A stretch of 41,263 bases of DNA. Source: Planctomycetota bacterium. Lineage in GTDB: Bacteria; Planctomycetota; Planctomycetia; Gemmatales; Gemmataceae. Of the stretch, positions 1-41,263 are shown in pieces. The notes beneath the pieces are model-generated. The model did not search any database, had not been told where the DNA came from, and saw only the letters and a list, made by a program, of their open reading frames with translations. The stretch lies in assembly GCA_016195405.1 (NCBI GenBank), contig JACPZP010000028.1:1-41263 (forward strand), read 5' to 3'. Numbering within the stretch: position 1 is the stretch's first letter; every line of letters begins with the position of its first letter. Position numbers and translations under genes: made by a program.

Positions 1-372
1 GGCCGCAGCCTGGTCGATGCCTTGCCCGAGGTTGTGAAAAGCCCGGTGCTGACGGCGCTATACGAACGCATGTTGAAGGGCATCGAGCAGGGCACGTCCG
101 AGCTGGACGCCTTCATCACGAAGCAAGAGCAATTCATTCGTGAGCAAGTCACGAAGGCCAACACCGGATCGGTGTCAATTGCAGGCGGCAAGGAAGGCGT
201 GAAAGTCTCCGAGCTGCACAAGTGCATGGCGTGCGGCAAAGGTCTTTCGCGCCGTGCGAGCACGAAGAAGAAGGGCATGTTCTGGTGGGGTTGCAGCAAC
301 TACCCGACATGCAATCAGACCTACCCCGACCTCAAGGGGAAGCCTGACTACAGCAAGGGCAAAGCCAGTTAA
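1..372 (+). CDS. traE: TraE, DNA topoisomerase III-like protein, C-terminal part only
   Basis: Partial: the reading frame is open from base 1, so only the last 123 residues are present. The segment beginning GRSLVDALPEVV resembles the end of the catalytic part of type IA topoisomerases. It is followed near the C-terminus by a four-cysteine zinc-finger signature (CMACGKG, then CSNYPTC about 20 residues later), typical of topoisomerase III tails. In RP4, traE lies just upstream of traD and traC, as here. TraE is not essential for RP4 transfer in E. coli as far as I recall. The catalytic tyrosine and Toprim domain lie outside the window, so activity cannot be judged. Confidence 0.85.
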   Translation, partial: GRSLVDALPEVVKSPVLTALYERMLKGIEQGTSELDAFITKQEQFIREQVTKANTGSVSIAGGKEGVKVSELHKCMACGKGLSRRASTKKKGMFWWGCSNYPTCNQTYPDLKGKPDYSKGKAS

Positions 373-5028: not shown

Positions 5029-5104
5029 TAGCGGTTGTTCTTCCTCCCTGACAACCCGCAGCAATTCGCCGCCTCGTACTCCCCGAGGCGGCTTTTTTTC
5101 GTCA
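5029..5104. repeat. 75-bp direct repeat, copy 1 (contains the traC terminator)
   Basis: A stretch starting TAGCGGTTGTTCTTCC and ending GTCA recurs at 5727-5800 with only a few differences. It holds the rho-independent terminator. The final TCA is the stop codon (read leftward) of the gene at 5102-5629; the same bases in copy 2 supply the stop of parB. Confidence 0.93.
5068..5099 (+). terminator. Rho-independent terminator after traC
   Basis: Perfect 9-bp stem GCCGCCTCG / CGAGGCGGC, 7-base loop, then seven T. Orientation fits rightward transcription from traE-traD-traC, 61 bases after the traC stop. Confidence 0.92.
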
Positions 5105-5629
5105 CTTCTCCGAGAAAGAAGCGGACACGGGTTCGCTCCATACGTCGCGTGCCCCGCTTTCCAGTTCGATTTTCATACGCCGCACGGCCTCGTTGAGAAG
5201 GTATGGCTCAATCTTTCGCCAGTCGGTCGCGGGCGACATAACCTCGCCGAACCTGGCGGGATGCCCGGCTAAACGAATGAATTTCAGCAGCCGTTGGCGG
5301 CAGGCCTCAACGCCAATTCCCAGCTCTTGTGCTGCGGCCATGACGGTTCGGCCAGATGCGACCAAAACGGCTACATCCATGCCGACCCGCATACTTCGGT
5401 CAAAGCGTACCTTGTTGCGTTCGGCGATTGCTTGCTCTTCCGCTGCCCTGGCCGGGCTTCGCGGCTTGAACCGTGGGCCGAAAGGTGGAATGCCGAGCTG
5501 CTTCATGCGCTTCTGAAGCTGGCTTGTCGGTCTATTGATACTTGCCGCAATCTTGACCAGCGTATTCGTCCCAAGGATTGCATCCTCAGAATCAGTCCAG
5601 GGCCTCGCTCCGGTGTCTAGTTTCGTCAT
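5102..5629 (-). CDS. Orphan protein, probable helix-turn-helix DNA-binding type
   Basis: Not recognised as an IncP-1 backbone gene. The ATG at 5629 gives 175 residues; an in-frame start at 5710 would give 202. No clear ribosome site distinguishes them. The N-terminal part (RPWTDSEDAILG, then IAASINRPTSQLQKRMKQLG) resembles a SANT/Myb or terminase-small-subunit-like helix-turn-helix. A second helix-turn-helix-like stretch follows (AAQELGIGVEACRQRLLKF). It stands alone, antisense to traC, between two copies of a 75-bp repeat. A DNA-binding role is inference. Confidence 0.6.
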   Translation of the reverse strand: MTKLDTGARPWTDSEDAILGTNTLVKIAASINRPTSQLQKRMKQLGIPPFGPRFKPRSPARAAEEQAIAERNKVRFDRSMRVGMDVAVLVASGRTVMAAAQELGIGVEACRQRLLKFIRLAGHPARFGEVMSPATDWRKIEPYLLNEAVRRMKIELESGARDVWSEPVSASFSEK

Positions 5630-5726
5630 GTCGTCTAGTTTGACGGAACCCACATAAGCAATCAGCCCATTAATTGGCTGTCTAGGTTGACAACTCGCAG
5701 CCCGCAGCAAATGGCCTCAGTAGGTG

Positions 5727-5800
5727 TAGCGGTTGTTTTTCCTCCCTGACAACCCGCAGCAATTCGCCGCCTCGTACTCCCGAGGCGGCTTTTTTTGTCA
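5727..5800. repeat. 75-bp direct repeat, copy 2
   Basis: Near-identical to 5029-5104, same orientation. Its terminator (stem 5766-5774/5781-5789, T-run 5790-5796) faces right although no rightward gene precedes it, which fits duplication of the traC terminator rather than a functional need. Confidence 0.93.
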
Positions 5801-7943: not shown

Positions 7944-9254
7944 TTAGTGGTTATCTGCAATACTCAGACGCGCAACGTACTCTTTCAACTTCACAAACGC
8001 GCTGATTCTTTTGCCCGGTTTATTGATGGCGCATAGCGCCACGCTTCGCTGATGATCGGCCCAGGTGAATAGGTCTTTCTCAGAAACTGGTGGTATTGAG
8101 TGCATGGCCTGGTCGATCCAGCACATCGTTGCATGCGTGCTGTCCCCTTGAGCCGCATTGCTGCGCCTGCGCCGAAGGCTGGCGGCCAGGCTTTCAGCTT
8201 CACCAGGTGCAACAAGACGCCAGTAGCCAACAGCAAAAGTGTCGGCCAGGGCCTCGCGCCAAATCTTGGTTGTGTTCTCTTCGGTCGCGGCCAAATACGA
8301 TTGCACGTCACTAACGCCCTTGGCATCAATCGGCGCGATGGAATGTACTTTTACGGCATGCTCGCCGAAGTTCGGAAGGTCGCGCAAACCGTCAAGGCAG
8401 TGCCCGAACTCGTGCATCATCACGCCCTGTATCCACAGCGTTTGATTCGGCTTGCCGGCCGGCTCGAAACTACGCAAAACATTGTCCCGGTACATGCTCA
8501 GTTCGCAGTAACCAGGACTGAGAGACATTGACGCCACGGAAGAGCTTGGTAGATTTACAGTTGTCGATGCCCAACTGTCATTTGAATCACCAAGTACCAC
8601 GTCAACATCGAAATTCTTGCGAGCAAATGCGCGCAACATTGGGAAGCCCTGCGGATCGGCAGCAAAGGCCATCCGGTCGATATTGAAGCGATGAATTGAA
8701 AACGACTGGGCCGCCATGCCAACGGCCAGCGTAATTATCACGGTCAGCATGGGCACCAGCAGCGCACATACACCCATCACAAAAGGCCGCTCCCACCGTC
8801 CGAGATTCGCCGAGTTGCCGGGTTGCAGCCAAGGGCGACGACTGGCCCAGGTAGCGCCGGCAGCGGCCGTCAGGCCAAGCATGGCTGCGATAAACCACCA
8901 ATCCATCGAGATAGCCCGGCAGGCGAGGGTTACGACCGCTACGCAGGCCGTCCACGCCAAGGGATAGAAGAATTCTGACCAAGTGGCGTCACTGTCTGTA
9001 CAGAGCGCAGCGCTGGCGCGCAGCTCGCCCAGCTCGACGCCAGAGACATGCCCAGCGGCGGCTAGGCCGACCAAATAGGCATCAACTGATTTCGTCCAGC
9101 CGGCCACCTTGCGCAAGGCGGCCGGCTTCAGGCGTTCCAGCCACTCGCTACCGAGCGGATCGGTTTGCGCGGCAGCACTGATTTTGTCGAAAAGCGTGTT
9201 CACGCTTTCAGCATGGTTGTACTTCGGCCTGGTGGATTTACCGCGTATTGCCAT
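7944..9254 (-). CDS. Membrane zinc metallopeptidase-like protein
   Basis: 436 residues from the ATG at 9254, which has GGGG about 9 bases upstream; a GTG at 9263 overlaps the upstream gene. A soluble N-terminal part is followed by three or four hydrophobic segments (about residues 85-180). The C-terminal domain has HEFGH (281-285) and EALAD (334-338), which fits a gluzincin-type zinc site with HExxH plus a downstream Glu. The family was not identified further. The substrate could be an envelope protein, as its neighbours are a YqaE-like protein, a lipoprotein and an OmpA-like protein. That is inference. It is not a backbone gene I recognise from RP4. Confidence 0.65.
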   Translation of the reverse strand: MAIRGKSTRPKYNHAESVNTLFDKISAAAQTDPLGSEWLERLKPAALRKVAGWTKSVDAYLVGLAAAGHVSGVELGELRASAALCTDSDATWSEFFYPLAWTACVAVVTLACRAISMDWWFIAAMLGLTAAAGATWASRRPWLQPGNSANLGRWERPFVMGVCALLVPMLTVIITLAVGMAAQSFSIHRFNIDRMAFAADPQGFPMLRAFARKNFDVDVVLGDSNDSWASTTVNLPSSSVASMSLSPGYCELSMYRDNVLRSFEPAGKPNQTLWIQGVMMHEFGHCLDGLRDLPNFGEHAVKVHSIAPIDAKGVSDVQSYLAATEENTTKIWREALADTFAVGYWRLVAPGEAESLAASLRRRRSNAAQGDSTHATMCWIDQAMHSIPPVSEKDLFTWADHQRSVALCAINKPGKRISAFVKLKEYVARLSIADNH

Positions 9255-9255
9255 G

Positions 9256-9453
9256 TTAAGCACCCCGCTGGCCGAGCGCCTTTTCGATCTTCTTATCGGT
9301 CTTGTACTGGCTCAGTGAATACACCGCCCAAATGGTCGCGGGAAGCCAGCCAATCACGGTTATTTGCAAGACTAGGCAGATGATTCCAGCAATGGGCTTG
9401 CCGATTGTGAAGAAGGTCAGCCAGGGCAGGATGAGAGCAATTAGAAAACGCAT
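9256..9453 (-). CDS. YqaE/Pmp3-like small membrane protein
   Basis: 65 residues with two hydrophobic helices (FLIALILPWLTFFTIG and AGIICLVLQITVIGWLPATI) and a charged tail, closely matching the layout of YqaE/Pmp3 proteolipids, which have a GWLPgxIwAvy-type motif. In other organisms such proteins influence membrane potential or stress tolerance. The role on a plasmid is unknown. It ends one base before the metallopeptidase ATG, so the two genes are probably coupled. Confidence 0.7.
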   Translation of the reverse strand: MRFLIALILPWLTFFTIGKPIAGIICLVLQITVIGWLPATIWAVYSLSQYKTDKKIEKALGQRGA

Positions 9454-21700: not shown

Positions 21701-22132
21701 TTACGCCACCATCCGACCAGTAACCAGGGAGGCAGCAGCTTGGGCCTGCTGGATCACTGCATTGCCCAGGGATGCGATTTCAGCGCCGCGACCAAAGAAG
21801 GTGCTCATGACGTTCTGAGCGCCGACCAACAGAGCCATGACCAGCACCAGGAAAATCAAGGTGCGGAAGAAGCCGTTGAGGTCGCCGCCGAAGATCAGGA
21901 CACCGCCCGCAACCACGATGCCGATGATCGACAGCGCGAACGCCACCGGGCCGGTCACGGAGTTTTGCAAGTTGGTCAGCCAGCCTTCATAGGGCAGAGA
22001 ACCGCCCGTGCCGGTCGATGCAAAGGCGTGTTGCGGGGCCAGGAAGATGAACGCCAGGAAGAGGAACAGGCCGAGCTGAAAAAGGGTGTTGCGGTTCAGT
22101 GCAACGGGTTGACGGGACAGGGTGAATTGCAT
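21701..22132 (-). CDS. trbC: TrbC, prepilin (VirB2-like, cyclic pilin precursor)
   Basis: 143 residues (RP4 TrbC 145). A long leader ends in AFA at residue 38. The hydrophobic pilin follows with [16 protein letters not shown] and [16 protein letters not shown]. The core from [12 protein letters not shown] to STFFGRG is 78 residues (39-116), matching the 78-residue cyclised RP4 pilin. AEIA follows it, as in RP4, where TraF removes that tetrapeptide and joins the ends. A partial second copy lies just upstream at 22212-22515. Confidence 0.94.
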
Positions 22133-22211: not shown

Positions 22212-22515
22212 TTACGCGAGCCTCCCGGAAGTCATCAAGGCCGCAGCCTGGTGAAGCACAGCATCGCCAACCGAGGCGATTTCAGCGCCGCGACCAAAGA
22301 AGGTGCTCATGACGTTCTGAGCGCCGACCAACAGAGCCATGACCAGCACCAGGAAAATCAAGGTGCGGAAGAAGCCGTTGAGGTCGCCGCCGAAGATCAG
22401 GACTCGATGCAAAGGCGTGTTGCGGGGCCAGGAAGCTGAACGCCAGGAGGATGAACAGACCGAGCTGAAAAAGGGTGTTGCGGTTGAATTTAATGGGCAT
22501 GGCGAGGGATTGCAT
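22212..22515 (-). pseudogene. Broken second copy of trbC
   Basis: Between trbB and trbC, and near-identical to trbC over about 130 bases. The ATG at 22515 opens a trbC-like leader ([11 protein letters not shown]... to [10 protein letters not shown]). Compared with trbC, 113 bases (21902-22014) are absent at the junction 22403/22404, so the frame shifts and stops early. The pilin second half survives in another frame, ending [24 protein letters not shown], which differs from the intact trbC tail. It cannot make pilin. See findings. Confidence 0.9.
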
Positions 22516-26033: not shown

Positions 26034-26128
26034 ATTCGACGCCGGCCGGCGTTGCCCCTCAAATGTCAGCAGCCCGCCAAGCGGTCGCACCTGGTGCGCC
26101 AGGCAGGCGCGTGCAATCGGTCAGATTT
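26034..26128. repeat. 95-bp direct repeat, copy 1, with inverted iteron
   Basis: Nearly identical to 26771-26866 (few substitutions and a one-base gap). It includes the reversed iteron GCCCCTCAAATGTCA at 26054-26068. It flanks the toxin-antitoxin pair on the left. Confidence 0.92.
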
Positions 26129-26770: not shown

Positions 26771-26866
26771 ATTCGACGCCAGCCGGCGTTGCCCCTCAAG
26801 TGTCAGCAGCCCGCCAAGCGGTCGCACTTGGTGCGCCAGGCCAGGCGCGTGCAATCGGTCAGATTT
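26771..26866. repeat. 95-bp direct repeat, copy 2, with inverted iteron
   Basis: Matches 26034-26128. It carries the reversed iteron GCCCCTCAAGTGTCA at 26791-26805. It begins 15 bases after the toxin stop. Confidence 0.92.
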
Positions 26867-28479: not shown

Positions 28480-28764
28480 ATGAAAACGCTGAACGTGATT
28501 CTTGGTGTCCTGGTGCTGGCTGCGGCAACGCTGGCGGCCCCCGCAATGCTGGCAAGCATCGTGGCCGGTTCCGCTGGCCTGCTGATGCTCGCATCGGCTG
28601 GGCCGACGCTTGCGCCGGCTCCCTTGGTTCAAACCGTGCAGATCGTGCGCCAGGTAGCAGCTCCAACGGTGAACGTCTTCGAGCTGGAAGGCGGCACGGG
28701 TGTTGTGGTGTTTCGCCAGGTCAACGGCAAGCTGGTCAGCCGTATGTATCGCGCCCAGGCATGA
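28480..28764 (+). CDS. Small exported or membrane protein
   Basis: 94 residues. Very hydrophobic N-terminal half (NVILGVLVLAAATLAAPAML, SIVAGSAGLLMLASAGP), then a short polar domain with TVNVFELEGGTGVVVFRQVN. TAGGAG precedes the ATG. It lies in the klcA operon, 64 bases after klcA. I do not recognise it. It has one or two membrane segments, or a signal peptide followed by a membrane segment. Confidence 0.6.
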   Translation: MKTLNVILGVLVLAAATLAAPAMLASIVAGSAGLLMLASAGPTLAPAPLVQTVQIVRQVAAPTVNVFELEGGTGVVVFRQVNGKLVSRMYRAQA

Positions 28765-28768
28765 AACC

Positions 28769-29182
28769 ATGAGCGACGAAGACAAGCCCGAGCTGGTGCC
28801 CGCTGGGTACGTGCTGGTTGACGTGGTTTTGACCACGCACCAGGCTTTCATCGTCAGGAAATGGGAAGCGGCAGCACGGCTCAAGATCGAGGCCGCGAGG
28901 GAGGCAAAGGCCAAGCCAAGGTTTGACGCCAGGAATGAAGTTGGTGACTTTCGGCCCGGTGCGCGGTGCGAAATCATCAGCGTGCATCACCCGTGTTTTT
29001 CGAGAGAAATAGGTAAAGTCATCGTCGTCACCAAGGTAAGCGCGGACACGCGCCAGGTGTGGGCGCATGAAGATAGACCTGTAACCTATAAGGTAAATCG
29101 AAACGGGAGAAGGGTTGTCGATTCCGACCCGAGGTGCATTCAAACCGTGTACGGCATGGAAAGCCTGCGGGTGCTTGAATGA
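28769..29182 (+). CDS. KlcB-position protein with KorA/TrbA-like domain
   Basis: 137 residues between klcA and korC, where RP4 has the much longer klcB (about 400). Its N-terminal part LVPAGYVLVDVVLTTHQAFI plus VRKWEAAAR aligns with the C-terminal domains of KorA (LPQGYERVSAVLPERQAY) and TrbA. It has no helix-turn-helix of its own; the rest is charged and ends VYGMESLRVLE. It could be a shortened KlcB or a modulator that pairs with KorA or TrbA. Both are inference. Confidence 0.6.
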   Translation: MSDEDKPELVPAGYVLVDVVLTTHQAFIVRKWEAAARLKIEAAREAKAKPRFDARNEVGDFRPGARCEIISVHHPCFSREIGKVIVVTKVSADTRQVWAHEDRPVTYKVNRNGRRVVDSDPRCIQTVYGMESLRVLE

Positions 29183-37152: not shown

Positions 37153-39546
37153 GTGATTGCCAAGCAGGTGCCCATGAAGTCCGTGGGTAAGAGCGATTTC
37201 GGTGGGCTGGTGAAGTACGTCACCGACGAGCAGAGCAAGAACGAGCGCGTTGGGTATGTCAACGTGACCAACTGCCAGACTGACAACTGGAAAGTTGCGA
37301 TAACCGAAGTTCTGAATACCCAAGCGCAGAACACGCGGGCAACATCGGACAAGACCTATCACCTGATCGTCAGCTTTCGCGCTGGCGAGCAGATAGACGA
37401 CGCGACCTTGAAGGCCATCGAGGCGCGTATCTGCGACGGGCTGGGTTATGGCGAGCATCAGCGCGTCAGTGCCGTGCATCACGACACCGACAACCTGCAC
37501 TTCCACATCGCCATCAACAAGATTCACCCGACGCGCTACACGATTCATGACCCGTACAACGACCACAAGACGTTGGGCCAGCTTTGCGAGAAGCTAGAGC
37601 GCGAATACGGGCTTGAAGTCGATAACCACCAGGCGCAAAAAACCGTGAGCGAGAACCGGGCGGCCGACATGGAGCGGCACGCCGGGGTTCAAAGCCTGCT
37701 GGGCTGGATCAAGCGCGAGTGTGCCGACCAGATCAAGGGTGCGCAGAGCTGGGCCGAGTTGCATGCCGTGATGCGCAGCAACGGCTTGGAACTCCAAGAG
37801 CGGGGCAACGGCCTGGTTATCACGGACGGGGCTGGCCTTGGCGTCAAGGCCAGTTCGGTTGCGCGTGAGCTGTCCAAGGCCAAGCTAGAGCAACGCCTTG
37901 GGGCGTTCGAGGCCACGCCCGCACATGCTGCGGCAGCGGCCGTCGCGCAGGCCGCGCAAGCGCGCCGCACGCAATCGCCCCCCGTTGGCAAGGTTGGAAG
38001 CAAGCCGCCGCCGCGCAGTCAAAACCGGCTGCACAACCTGTCGCAGCTTGAGGCCATGAAGATCAACAGCGGGCGGCGATACGAGGCGCAGCCGATGCGC
38101 TCTCGGATCAACACCGTTGAGTTGTACGCCAGGTACAAAAACGATCAGCAAAGCAGCGGCGCAACACGCACGACTGAATGGGCCAAGGCCCTGGACCGCA
38201 AGAACCGCCTGCTTGAATCGGCCAAGCGAACTGCGCAGCTCAAGCGCAGTGCTATCAAGGTCATCAAGGGTGCCGGGCCGGGTAAGAAGGTCATGTACAG
38301 CGCGACGACCAAGACGCTGAAAGACGAAATCCAGAAGGTCAACAAGCAATACCTCGCCGAGCGCCAGGCGATCTACGACAAATACCAGCGCCTCGCATGG
38401 GCCGACTGGTTGAGGGCGAAGGCCACCGAGGGCGATCAAGAGGCGCTAGGCGCGTTGCGCGCCCGTGACGCGGCCCAGGGCCTCAAGGGCAACACCGTGG
38501 CCGGCAATGCCGGCCAGAAGGCCCCGCAGGGCCTTCCACAGCAAGACAGCATCACCAAGAAGGGGACGATCATCTATCGCGTCGGCCCTACGGCCGTGCG
38601 CGATGACGGGGACAAGCTGAAAGTCTCGCGGGGTGCGAACCAGGACGGATTGCAAGCCGCTCTGCGCCTCGCAATTGAGCGTTACGGCGACCGGATCACA
38701 GTCAACGGCACCGACGCATTCAAAGAGCAAATCGCCCAGGCGGCCGTGGCCGCCAAGCTGCCCATCACCTTTGCAGACGCCGCCCTAGAGCGTCGCCGTC
38801 AAGAACTACTGCAACCCATCACTACCAAGGAGAACGCGAATGAGCACGAACGAACACGACCCGCAGCACAACCAGGAGCGCGAACTACCGCCGAGCAGCC
38901 ACGAGCCGACAGAGGACGAGCTGATAGCCGCAGCGATGGCCGCGCTGGACTCGCCGCTACCGGAGTCAACGCAACCCGAGCCGGGCGAGCTGGGGGGCGA
39001 CAGTTCCGGCCCGTCCGAGGAGAACCCGTTCCAGGTGGCGGACTCCCCGGCAAGCCCGACATTGGCGGCGTTGGACGAAAGCCGCCGCCCCAAAGCCAGA
39101 ACCGTTTGCGAGGGCTGTCCGAACTCGGTGTGGTTCAGCTCGCCAGCGGAGGTCAAGTGCTATTGCCGCGTGATGTTCCTGGTCACATGGAGCAACAAGG
39201 AGCCAAACCAGATCACGGGCTGCGACGGGATATTTTTGGGGCAGGAAGAGTAGCGGCCGGGCAGGACGCAGCGGATAAGTACATCGCCGAACGCGAGGCC
39301 ATGCGGCTTAAAGTGTTCGATATACCGAAGCACACACGATATAATCAGGGTAATGACGGGGCCGCCGCTTTCGCGGGAATCCGCCAGGTTGAAGGGCAGA
39401 CGCTGGCCCTTCTCAAGCGCGGCGAAGAGGTCATGGTTCTGCCAGTTGACGACGCCAATGCCCGACGCCTCAAGCGTGTTGCCGTTGGGGAGGTTGTCAC
39501 CGTGACGCCGAAGGGTTCCATCAAAACGAAAGGAAGAAGCAGATGA
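37153..39546 (+). CDS. traI: TraI, relaxase (MOB-P type)
   Basis: 797 residues (RP4 TraI 732). The GTG start gives MIAKQVPMKSVGKSD. Catalytic Tyr22 (LVKYVTDEQ), the serine motif in LIVSFRAGEQ and the histidine motif HHDTDNLHFHIAINKIHP are all present. It nicks oriT, holds the 5' end and rejoins it after transfer. The C-terminal region from about residue 700 resembles a KfrB-type module (LALLKRGEEVMVLPVDD). traH is encoded inside it in the +1-shifted frame, and its stop overlaps traG. Confidence 0.96.
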   Translation: MIAKQVPMKSVGKSDFGGLVKYVTDEQSKNERVGYVNVTNCQTDNWKVAITEVLNTQAQNTRATSDKTYHLIVSFRAGEQIDDATLKAIEARICDGLGYGEHQRVSAVHHDTDNLHFHIAINKIHPTRYTIHDPYNDHKTLGQLCEKLEREYGLEVDNHQAQKTVSENRAADMERHAGVQSLLGWIKRECADQIKGAQSWAELHAVMRSNGLELQERGNGLVITDGAGLGVKASSVARELSKAKLEQRLGAFEATPAHAAAAAVAQAAQARRTQSPPVGKVGSKPPPRSQNRLHNLSQLEAMKINSGRRYEAQPMRSRINTVELYARYKNDQQSSGATRTTEWAKALDRKNRLLESAKRTAQLKRSAIKVIKGAGPGKKVMYSATTKTLKDEIQKVNKQYLAERQAIYDKYQRLAWADWLRAKATEGDQEALGALRARDAAQGLKGNTVAGNAGQKAPQGLPQQDSITKKGTIIYRVGPTAVRDDGDKLKVSRGANQDGLQAALRLAIERYGDRITVNGTDAFKEQIAQAAVAAKLPITFADAALERRRQELLQPITTKENANEHERTRPAAQPGARTTAEQPRADRGRADSRSDGRAGLAATGVNATRAGRAGGRQFRPVRGEPVPGGGLPGKPDIGGVGRKPPPQSQNRLRGLSELGVVQLASGGQVLLPRDVPGHMEQQGAKPDHGLRRDIFGAGRVAAGQDAADKYIAEREAMRLKVFDIPKHTRYNQGNDGAAAFAGIRQVEGQTLALLKRGEEVMVLPVDDANARRLKRVAVGEVVTVTPKGSIKTKGRSR
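38840..39253 (+). CDS. traH: TraH, encoded within traI in another frame
   Basis: 137 residues (RP4 TraH about 119). AAGGAG lies 8 bases upstream of the ATG. Acidic, Pro/Glu/Ser-rich first half (DPQHNQERELPPSSHEPTED), then a cysteine-containing C-terminus (TVCEGCPNSVWF, VKCYCRVMFL). In RP4, TraH stabilises the relaxosome by holding TraI and TraJ. The same nested arrangement exists there, supporting that this is a real gene. Confidence 0.85.
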   Translation: MSTNEHDPQHNQERELPPSSHEPTEDELIAAAMAALDSPLPESTQPEPGELGGDSSGPSEENPFQVADSPASPTLAALDESRRPKARTVCEGCPNSVWFSSPAEVKCYCRVMFLVTWSNKEPNQITGCDGIFLGQEE

Positions 39547-41255
39547 AAGACAGGTTCAACAATGCCGTAGGCCCGCAAGTGCGCGCCAAGAAGGAAGGGC
39601 CTGGAAAGGTCATTCCTGCCTTGGCTGTGGTGTCTATCGCTGCTGGGCTGCAAGCCGCAACCCAGTTTTTCGCGCACGACTTTAGATACCAATCTGGTTC
39701 TGCCCGCTGGGCGAACGTCAGGGACATTCGGGCGGCTGGCCTGATCCCACGGACGCGCAGCTTGTTCCAGACCATCACCGGCAAAGAGGCCCCGACCAGC
39801 TCCGGCGTGTACGTTGGCGCGTGGATCGACAAGGATGGCAAGCAGCACTACTTGCGTCACAACGGGCCAGAGCATGTCTTGTGCTACGCCCCGACCCGTT
39901 CAGGCAAGGGCGTCGGCCTGGTCGTTCCTACACTGCTGTCCTGGGGACATAGCGCTGTCGTCACCGACCTGAAAGGCGAGCTTTGGGCTTTGACGGCTGG
40001 CTGGCGTCAGAAGCACGCGAAGAACAAGGTCTTGCGCTTCGAGCCGGCCACAGCCAGCGGCAGCATCTGCTGGAACCCCTTGGACGAAATCCGGCTGGGC
40101 ACAGAAAACGAAGTTGGCGACGTGCAGAACCTTGCAACGCTGATTGTTGACCCGGACGGCAAGGGCCTTGAAAGCCACTGGCAGAAGACCAGCCAGGCGC
40201 TGCTTGTGGGCGTGATCCTGCACGCGCTCTACAAAGCCAAGGCCGAGGGCACCACGGCCAGCCTACCCAGCGTCGATGCCATGCTCGCCGATCCGAACCG
40301 CGACATTGGCGAGCTGTGGATGGAGATGACCACCTACGGCCACGCTGACGGCCAAAATCATTCCGTTATCGGGTCTTCGGCCCGCGACATGATGGATAGG
40401 CCAGAAGAGGAAGCCGGGTCGGTGCTTTCTACCGCCAAGTCTTACTTGGCCCTCTACCGCGATCCAATCGTGGCCCGCAATGTCAGCAAGTCGGAATTCA
40501 AGATCAAAGACTTGATGCACGACGACAACGCGGTAAGCCTCTACATCGTCACCCAGCCGAACGACAAGGCCCGTTTGCGGCCTCTCGTGCGCGTCATGGT
40601 CAACATGGTTGTGCGCCTGCTGGCTGACAAGATGGACTTCGAGAACGGCCGGCCGGTCGCCCATTACAAGCACCGGCTGTTGATGATGCTCGATGAGTTC
40701 CCGAGCCTTGGGAAACTTGAAATCATGCAAGAGTCGCTGGCCTTCGTGGCCGGCTATGGCATCAAGTGCTACTTGATATGCCAGGACATAAATCAGCTCA
40801 AGAGTCGAGAAACAGGCTACGGCCACGATGAAAGCATTACGTCGAATTGCCACGTTCAGAACGCCTATCCACCGAACCGCGTAGAGACAGCAGAGCACCT
40901 TTCTAAGCTGACCGGCCAGACAACAGTAGCCAAGGAACAAATCACCACCAGCGGCCGCCGCACAAGCGCATTGCTGGGGCAAGTGTCTCGCACCATCCAG
41001 GAAGTGCAACGGCCCTTGTTGACGCCAGATGAATGCTTGCGTATGCCGGGGCCGGTCAAGACCGATAGCGGCGACATTGCCGAGGCCGGCGACATGGTTG
41101 TGTACGTCGCAGGCTACCCAGCGATCTACGGCAAGCAACCGCTGTACTTCAAAGACCCAACCTTTCAGGCGCGTGCGTCGATTCCCGCGCCCAAGAACAG
41201 CGACAAGCTGCGTCAGGTGTCCGAGGTCAAGAAGGGGGAGGGCATCACGATATGA
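39543..41255 (+). CDS. traG: TraG, coupling protein (VirD4-like), internally shortened
   Basis: 570 residues; RP4 TraG is 635. One membrane segment near residues 23-45 (VIPALAVVSIAAGLQAATQF). Walker A APTRSGKG (116-123), Walker B LLMMLDEFPSLGK (D384, E385). The C-terminal part is almost RP4-like, ending EGITI. The GSARWA motif normally follows two membrane segments and a periplasmic loop, but here lies at residue 52, so about 65 residues between FRYQ and GSARW are missing in frame. This may disturb topology. Start overlaps traI (ATGA). Confidence 0.93.
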   Translation: MKDRFNNAVGPQVRAKKEGPGKVIPALAVVSIAAGLQAATQFFAHDFRYQSGSARWANVRDIRAAGLIPRTRSLFQTITGKEAPTSSGVYVGAWIDKDGKQHYLRHNGPEHVLCYAPTRSGKGVGLVVPTLLSWGHSAVVTDLKGELWALTAGWRQKHAKNKVLRFEPATASGSICWNPLDEIRLGTENEVGDVQNLATLIVDPDGKGLESHWQKTSQALLVGVILHALYKAKAEGTTASLPSVDAMLADPNRDIGELWMEMTTYGHADGQNHSVIGSSARDMMDRPEEEAGSVLSTAKSYLALYRDPIVARNVSKSEFKIKDLMHDDNAVSLYIVTQPNDKARLRPLVRVMVNMVVRLLADKMDFENGRPVAHYKHRLLMMLDEFPSLGKLEIMQESLAFVAGYGIKCYLICQDINQLKSRETGYGHDESITSNCHVQNAYPPNRVETAEHLSKLTGQTTVAKEQITTSGRRTSALLGQVSRTIQEVQRPLLTPDECLRMPGPVKTDSGDIAEAGDMVVYVAGYPAIYGKQPLYFKDPTFQARASIPAPKNSDKLRQVSEVKKGEGITI

Positions 41256-41263
41256 ACCGCCTA
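41252..41263 (+). CDS. traF: Start of the next gene, probably traF (cut by the window end)
   Basis: ATG at 41252 overlaps the traG stop as ATGA, like the other tra junctions, and encodes MNRL before the window stops. In RP4 the next gene is traF, the peptidase that cyclises pilin, which begins MSRIL. Four codons only, so this is position-based. Confidence 0.45.

Follow-up and report, generated by a model that had tools for sequence, protein, structure and literature searches.

An in-frame 198-nt gap in traG of an IncP-1-like contig removes the periplasmic loop and second membrane helix of the coupling protein

The window, meaning the whole stretch of DNA analysed (41,263 nucleotides), takes up an entire contig (C193) of a draft genome in 214 contigs, and its backbone is IncP-1-like as judged by its gene content. 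Its traG gene lacks 198 nt in frame relative to its relatives, so that the encoded coupling protein loses the periplasmic loop and the second transmembrane helix (TM2). By analogy with coupling proteins whose membrane domain has been damaged, it is probable that this TraG can no longer couple DNA to the transfer channel. As a sequence feature of the assembled contig, the gap is real.

The traG gene and its missing segment

The traG gene (39543..41255, forward strand, as are the other traE, traF, traG and traI features given below) is an uninterrupted ORF for a coupling protein of 570 aa. The product is clearly a TraG of the IncP type (NF010453/PRK13880) by profile comparison, with 1120.5 bits against PRK13880 (curated cut-off 586) and 521.5 bits against PF02534. 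The PF02534 match comprises TraG residues 55-551, and the best coverage of PRK13880 begins at TraG residue 51, corresponding to profile position 117. The order traI-traG-traF with overlapping ORFs is present: the last 4 nt of the relaxase gene traI (37153..39546, 797 aa) overlap the traG start (ATGA, 39543-39546), and the presumed traF ATG lies at 41252 within the end of traG, as in pAKD4. Only the first codons of traF (41252..41263, assigned by position after traG) are included, since the gene is cut by the contig end.

Both ends of TraG align with the proteins of pAKD4, X. hyacinthi, pEST4011, pYKCG107, pBP136 and pLM159.2 (634-637 aa), and a single internal gap of 66 residues follows S51, directly before GSARW. 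The missing 198 nt are located at 39695/39696, with the deletion junction CAA TCT / GGT TCT (39690..39701) between S51 and G52. The GSARW motif, which opens the nucleotide-binding domain, occupies residues 52-56 (39696..39710). The original prediction had described a TraG without second membrane segment and periplasmic loop, with GSARW at residue 52, and had proposed an alignment with IncP-1 plasmids; this alignment agrees with it on both points, all six plasmid proteins carrying the 66 residues. Its estimate of the shortfall, 65 residues or about 195 bp, has to be corrected to 66 aa and 198 nt. A wrong start codon was ruled out as the cause of the short TraG, since residues 1-50 match the relatives. 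These residues are conserved, and N6, N7, A8, V9, G10, P11, Q12 and R14 are invariant in a 38-row alignment.

The missing stretch corresponds to the periplasmic loop and all of TM2. Eighteen positions conserved in at least 90% of the 38 rows fall in it, namely L53, G54, Y61, P63, W64, I66, W69, W73, Y77, P78, A84, G88, G95, L96, N108, N113, L116 and H117 in the numbering of P0001 (a full-length homologue described below), where L116-H117 directly precede GSARW. VirD4-type proteins are characterized by at least two N-terminal transmembrane helices and a periplasmic loop, according to PMC7434980, and in this TraG one marginal segment is left. This retained first hydrophobic segment, TM1 (residues 22-44, 39606..39674), has a hydropathy of 1.57 and a predicted insertion cost of +2.1 kcal/mol. 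More precisely, +2.14 kcal/mol was calculated for TM1 versus +2.02 for a soluble segment of the same protein at residue 212. Across the 160 homologues whose GSA motif is in its customary position, the median predicted insertion cost was 0.93 kcal/mol for TM2 versus 2.60 for TM1 (1.33 and 2.64 in P0001). Since its insertion cost is lower than that of TM1 across homologues, the lost TM2 is predicted to be the stronger anchor of the two. The topology check suggested by the original prediction was run and gives one marginal TM1 and no TM2; its statement that one membrane helix remains stands as regards the loss of TM2, but TM1 scores no better than a soluble segment, so "one" may be generous.

Hydropathy at a threshold of 1.0 gave two segments in 145, one in 14 and three in 2 of 161 full-length homologues, and the single segment found in 14 of them shows that a helix can escape so simple a scale even when the protein is intact. 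AlphaFold2 models were judged by secondary structure and confidence only, and both are weak overall (mean pLDDT 57 for P0001 and 55 for the window TraG, from 38 sequences each). P0001 shows helices at 23-46 and 78-108, with 10-residue means of 74-87 and 60 at the end, while residues 1-50 of the window TraG show only a short helix, 23-34, with means of 25-44. The 22-residue N-tail contains six K/R and two D/E, and the 25 residues after TM1 four K/R and two D/E; by this charge distribution, an N-in topology is favoured.

The remainder of the protein is well preserved, including the N-terminal motif NNAVGPQ, GSARW, the C-terminus and the ORF overlaps. The region APTRSGKG (residues 116-123, 39888..39911), with invariant columns S120, G121, K122 and G123, and the region ending in D384 E385 (40680..40697), also in invariant alignment columns, are both intact; we take them to be the Walker A and Walker B regions, respectively. 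A nucleotide-binding domain of the VirD4 type with both motifs is therefore present and, as originally predicted, the ATPase domain is retained. From GSARW on, dN is 0.046-0.048 and dS 0.72-0.73 against the four nearest of eight DNA relatives, a pattern which, at the level of coding sequence, shows long purifying selection on the ATPase core and no decay. This signal is likely to be mostly older than the deletion and gives no date for it.

Relatives and origin of the deletion

Close relatives with the same short form had been named as evidence against the original prediction, and none was found among 166 homologues, 43 genome loci and 40 listed plasmid rows. P0001, the best-scoring among 8000 scored candidates from a 5.8-billion-sequence protein collection, is a TraG of 636 aa that carries the missing piece and differs by 8 substitutions in 570 shared positions; it stands for 5 clustered sequences, which occur on 27 public contigs. 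The 166 homologues, none with the gap, comprise the best 120 of these 8000 and the best 120 of 396 from a second protein search, in a collection clustered at 90% with representatives only, where short forms could hide in the P0001 cluster. The GSA motif is found at residue 110 or later in 161 of them, and the other five (P0062, P0067, P0076, P0080 and P0094) start late and keep the second helix. Since the words of the second search were drawn from residues 1-110 of the short TraG, a protein with the same junction was expected to rank first; P0001 was again at the top, and its best local alignment covered 57% of those residues.

At the DNA level, all 43 loci from a scan of genome contigs carry the full segment. 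The gap was also absent from the 40 plasmid rows listed in a tblastn search with at least 5000 matching records; these rows span 1902-1911 nt, and the short form needs about 1710. A 201-nt junction probe matched 85 plasmid records, none of which covers 80% of the probe; the best among 60 matches listed reached 47% coverage, on the right-hand side only. NC_001735.4, presumably plasmid R751, was matched only by the right-hand half. In plasmid LC746226.1, traG is annotated in two pieces. Among the paper titles listed in literature searches, none was on a natural short TraG, and absence from print is not claimed.

When the window's own genome was searched with its TraG, the single match was the query itself, with no second IncP-type TraG. 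Nothing in the assembled genome outside traG matched the missing piece (best E 0.45); its relocation within the genome was ruled out, as no copy matched. Searches for the DNA of P0001 were negative. The best match in the plasmid collection reached 84.8% at the DNA level, and the 43 loci of the genome-contig scan gave at most 91% protein identity. The host family's 94 other genomes yielded two matches, each some 50 nt long, and among 399 genomes from the order to which locus L014 belongs, the best match was L014's own genome; IMG/VR gave 2 candidate stretches, none confirmed.

The breakpoints were located in relatives, the pattern fitting 39 genome loci and 6 plasmid loci (L020, L041, L047 and L056 did not fit). 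Exactly 198 nt separate the two sites in 43 of these 45, the exceptions being L046 (195) and L049 (207). Microhomology was counted in 44 loci, with L005 left out along with the same four misfits: in register, the breakpoints share 0 nt in 29, 1 in 9 and 2 in 6 loci, and no shared word longer than 8 nt occurs within 30 nt of them in any register. A deletion via long direct repeats was ruled out, since there are no such repeats at the breakpoints. The junction has a 15-nt near-repeat at 39434 in traI, which is not within the deleted interval and was taken as chance, and a CGGT 4-nt repeat at the breakpoints of L016 was discarded because it would give an out-of-frame product. With no more than 2 nt in common between the breakpoints in register, the deletion looks like an illegitimate event without repeats, and it is most likely recent. 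An in-frame outcome would occur in 1 of 3 cases by chance.

Plasmid backbone and reliability of the contig

For a tblastn survey of the backbone, the 49 proteins annotated on NZ_CP043477.1, a plasmid of X. hyacinthi, served as queries; several of these, labelled hypothetical in the record itself, were named by position. TraI, TraG, the end of TraE, TraD, TraC, TrbA-J, TrbL-P and TrfA are on the contig, as are KorA/B/C, IncC, Klc, Kle, Kfr and TraK/L/M; TrbN was matched over 1-201 of 201. No match on the contig was obtained for 11 of the 49, including TraF and TrbK. The contig starts inside traE (topoisomerase III), of which it holds the 3' end (1..372), and continues round to the first traF codons, with no exact terminal overlap in the 11-200 nt checked. 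The rest of traF, after codon 4, and most of traE, together about 2.35 kb by arithmetic on pAKD4 coordinates, were not found in the assembly; either this is a linear contig without that stretch or there is a second lesion. The original prediction that the other transfer genes are intact fits what the contig holds, apart from an extra trbC copy that is broken, and can be judged only for that part, to which most of these two genes do not belong.

This copy is a second, diverged trbC (pilin) gene at 22246-22485 on the reverse strand, between trbB and an intact trbC (21701-22132). It shows 94-95% identity to the intact gene in two blocks, and its frame is broken because 113 nt are absent between them. 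None of 335 matching plasmid records covers 80% of the two-copy region. Other peculiarities were noted. TraI has 797 aa versus 732 in pAKD4 and X. hyacinthi, and part of this surplus is an insertion of 35 residues near position 275, whose KPPPRSQNRL motif resembles another further on in the same protein. Only the C-terminal third of klcB is present (28700-29182, residues 309-468 of the 468-aa X. hyacinthi KlcB). Two direct-repeat pairs of 70-71 nt, 5029-5098 / 5727-5796 and 26034-26104 / 26771-26841, show 89% and 96% identity, respectively; the first flanks an ORF without family match (5102-5710). In addition, a 439-aa ORF in an accessory stretch (7947-9263, reverse strand) has no Pfam or NCBIfam match.

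The GC content of the contig, 59.6%, equals that of five other contigs sampled from the genome (57-60%), and its tetranucleotide use is closer to an IncP plasmid (0.96) than to those five (0.66-0.82). It is possible, but no more than that, that a plasmid contig was wrongly binned into this genome, because agreement between the short contig samples themselves is no closer (0.66-0.85).

An assembly fault or chimera is the main rival explanation: traG would be full-length on the plasmid, and the gap would come from library preparation or from assembly of a mixed sample. The contig, one of 214, extends just 1.56 kb past the gap on the downstream side, the assembly lacks traF and most of traE, another gap sits in a trbC copy, and a near-identical full-length protein, P0001, is public. 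The details of the gap itself are against it. It preserves the reading frame exactly, and in the 19 further tra/trb proteins with a usable comparison (TraJ, TraH, TrbK and TrbO were left out) no more than 13 residues are missing in one place. With at most 2 nt shared in register in the 44 loci, a k-mer assembler would have nothing to collapse on, and a repeat-collapse artefact is disfavoured since the breakpoints have no shared repeats. Altogether, an artefact is considered unlikely.

Consequence for transfer and comparison with known systems

If the deletion is real, the preferred reading is loss of coupling. The transmembrane domain (TMD) of VirD4-type proteins is described as essential for conjugation and involved in the contact with VirB10, periplasmic loops of coupling proteins as needed, and the second helix of TrwB as holding oligomerisation contacts (PMC7434980). 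TrwB-dN70, PcfC-dN103 and MobB-dTMD gave no transfer, loop-less coupling proteins were reported to lie at the membrane periphery, and TcpA-d46-104, without TMD but with its N-terminus, transferred at reduced frequency (PMC7431656). Since most coupling proteins lacking the TMD lose transfer, the window TraG is by analogy most likely transfer-defective, with the proviso that none of these constructs is identical to it and none is an IncP TraG.

In mechanistic terms, TM2, the stronger anchor by prediction, would carry the hexamer contacts and also the contacts to the VirB10-like channel protein TrbI, by analogy with TrwB. The weak TM1, basic on each side, might insert unstably, leaving a peripheral or soluble ATPase; alternatively, it might insert N-in, and the ATPase would then face the periplasm. 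Either way, the relaxase-DNA complex would remain undelivered. The two outcomes named in the original prediction, a defective protein or a changed topology, are both plausible. Since the reading frame is preserved and traG still overlaps traI at one end and traF at the other, downstream translation is likely to be spared. Such a plasmid would be maintained vertically, or would be mobile only with another IncP TraG in trans.

The other explanation to be weighed, likewise unlikely, is that the short TraG still works with reduced efficiency as a single-span or peripheral protein, either because TM1 replaces TM2 (N-out, ATPase inside) or because channel contacts hold the ATPase. The undecayed ATPase core counts against loss of function, as does the in-frame gap, which is what is expected if the product is still of use, and the Walker motifs and the invariant N-terminus are intact. 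According to PMC7431656, TcpA-d46-104 keeps some transfer and the N-terminus of CloDF13 MobB is periplasmic; coupling proteins without TMD also exist, such as pIP501 TraJ (PMC7434980). Partial function is possible by this analogy, as TcpA-d46-104 still transfers and TraG keeps NNAVGPQ. On the contrary, the charges of the N-tail favour N-in, 18 nearly invariant positions are lost, and the architecture is absent from the homologues, genome loci and listed plasmid rows compared. It is very unlikely that this is a natural single-helix coupling protein of a Gram-negative conjugative plasmid that still moves DNA with TM1 inverted into the place of TM2; if it did, the periplasmic loop and the two-helix hairpin would be dispensable. 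That a different gene in the cell supplies the missing domain in trans is scarcely credible: the genome has one other protein of the VirD4/TraD kind (C8, 650 aa), whose N-terminal stretches look hydrophobic by eye, but its relation to the family is distant (51 bits to PF02534) and it is not found with the window TraG as query, and the missing IncP piece is matched nowhere else in the genome.

Loss of coupling through a real deletion would make this TraG a natural counterpart of the laboratory TMD mutants, in a conjugative plasmid moving towards purely vertical inheritance, most of whose backbone is otherwise preserved. Should the short form work at all, it would be a natural test of the role of the periplasmic loop and TM2. 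The position of VirD4 within the machine remains unclear, according to a 2025 review (PMC12624023).

Compared with known systems, the window TraG has gene order, ORF overlaps, N-terminus, GSARW, Walker motifs and C-terminus in common with the IncP-1 TraG proteins (PRK13880/NF010453), such as those of pAKD4, pEST4011 and the X. hyacinthi plasmid. From just before GSARW on, its identity to X. hyacinthi TraG is 92.7%. It differs from IncP-1 TraG in lacking the 66 residues of periplasmic loop and TM2, and from P0001 in lacking the full two-helix N-terminal domain. Like TrwB-dN70, PcfC-dN103, MobB-dTMD and TcpA-d46-104, it keeps the soluble ATPase core with a damaged membrane domain; those are laboratory constructs that lose the TMD (PMC7431656), whereas here the change is natural and TM1 and the N-tail are kept. 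The TraJ protein of pIP501, naturally without TMD, is also an ATPase without its own two-helix anchor, but it belongs to a separate lineage with TraI of pIP501 as proposed anchoring partner (PMC7434980 and PMC12857230). A protein of its type would be expected to have no N-terminal hydrophobic segment; the window TraG retains TM1, which is however marginal by insertion cost. The window TraG is thus most likely a broken copy of a known machine rather than a new kind, produced by a rare deletion that inactivated the gene in a single plasmid of a familiar type.
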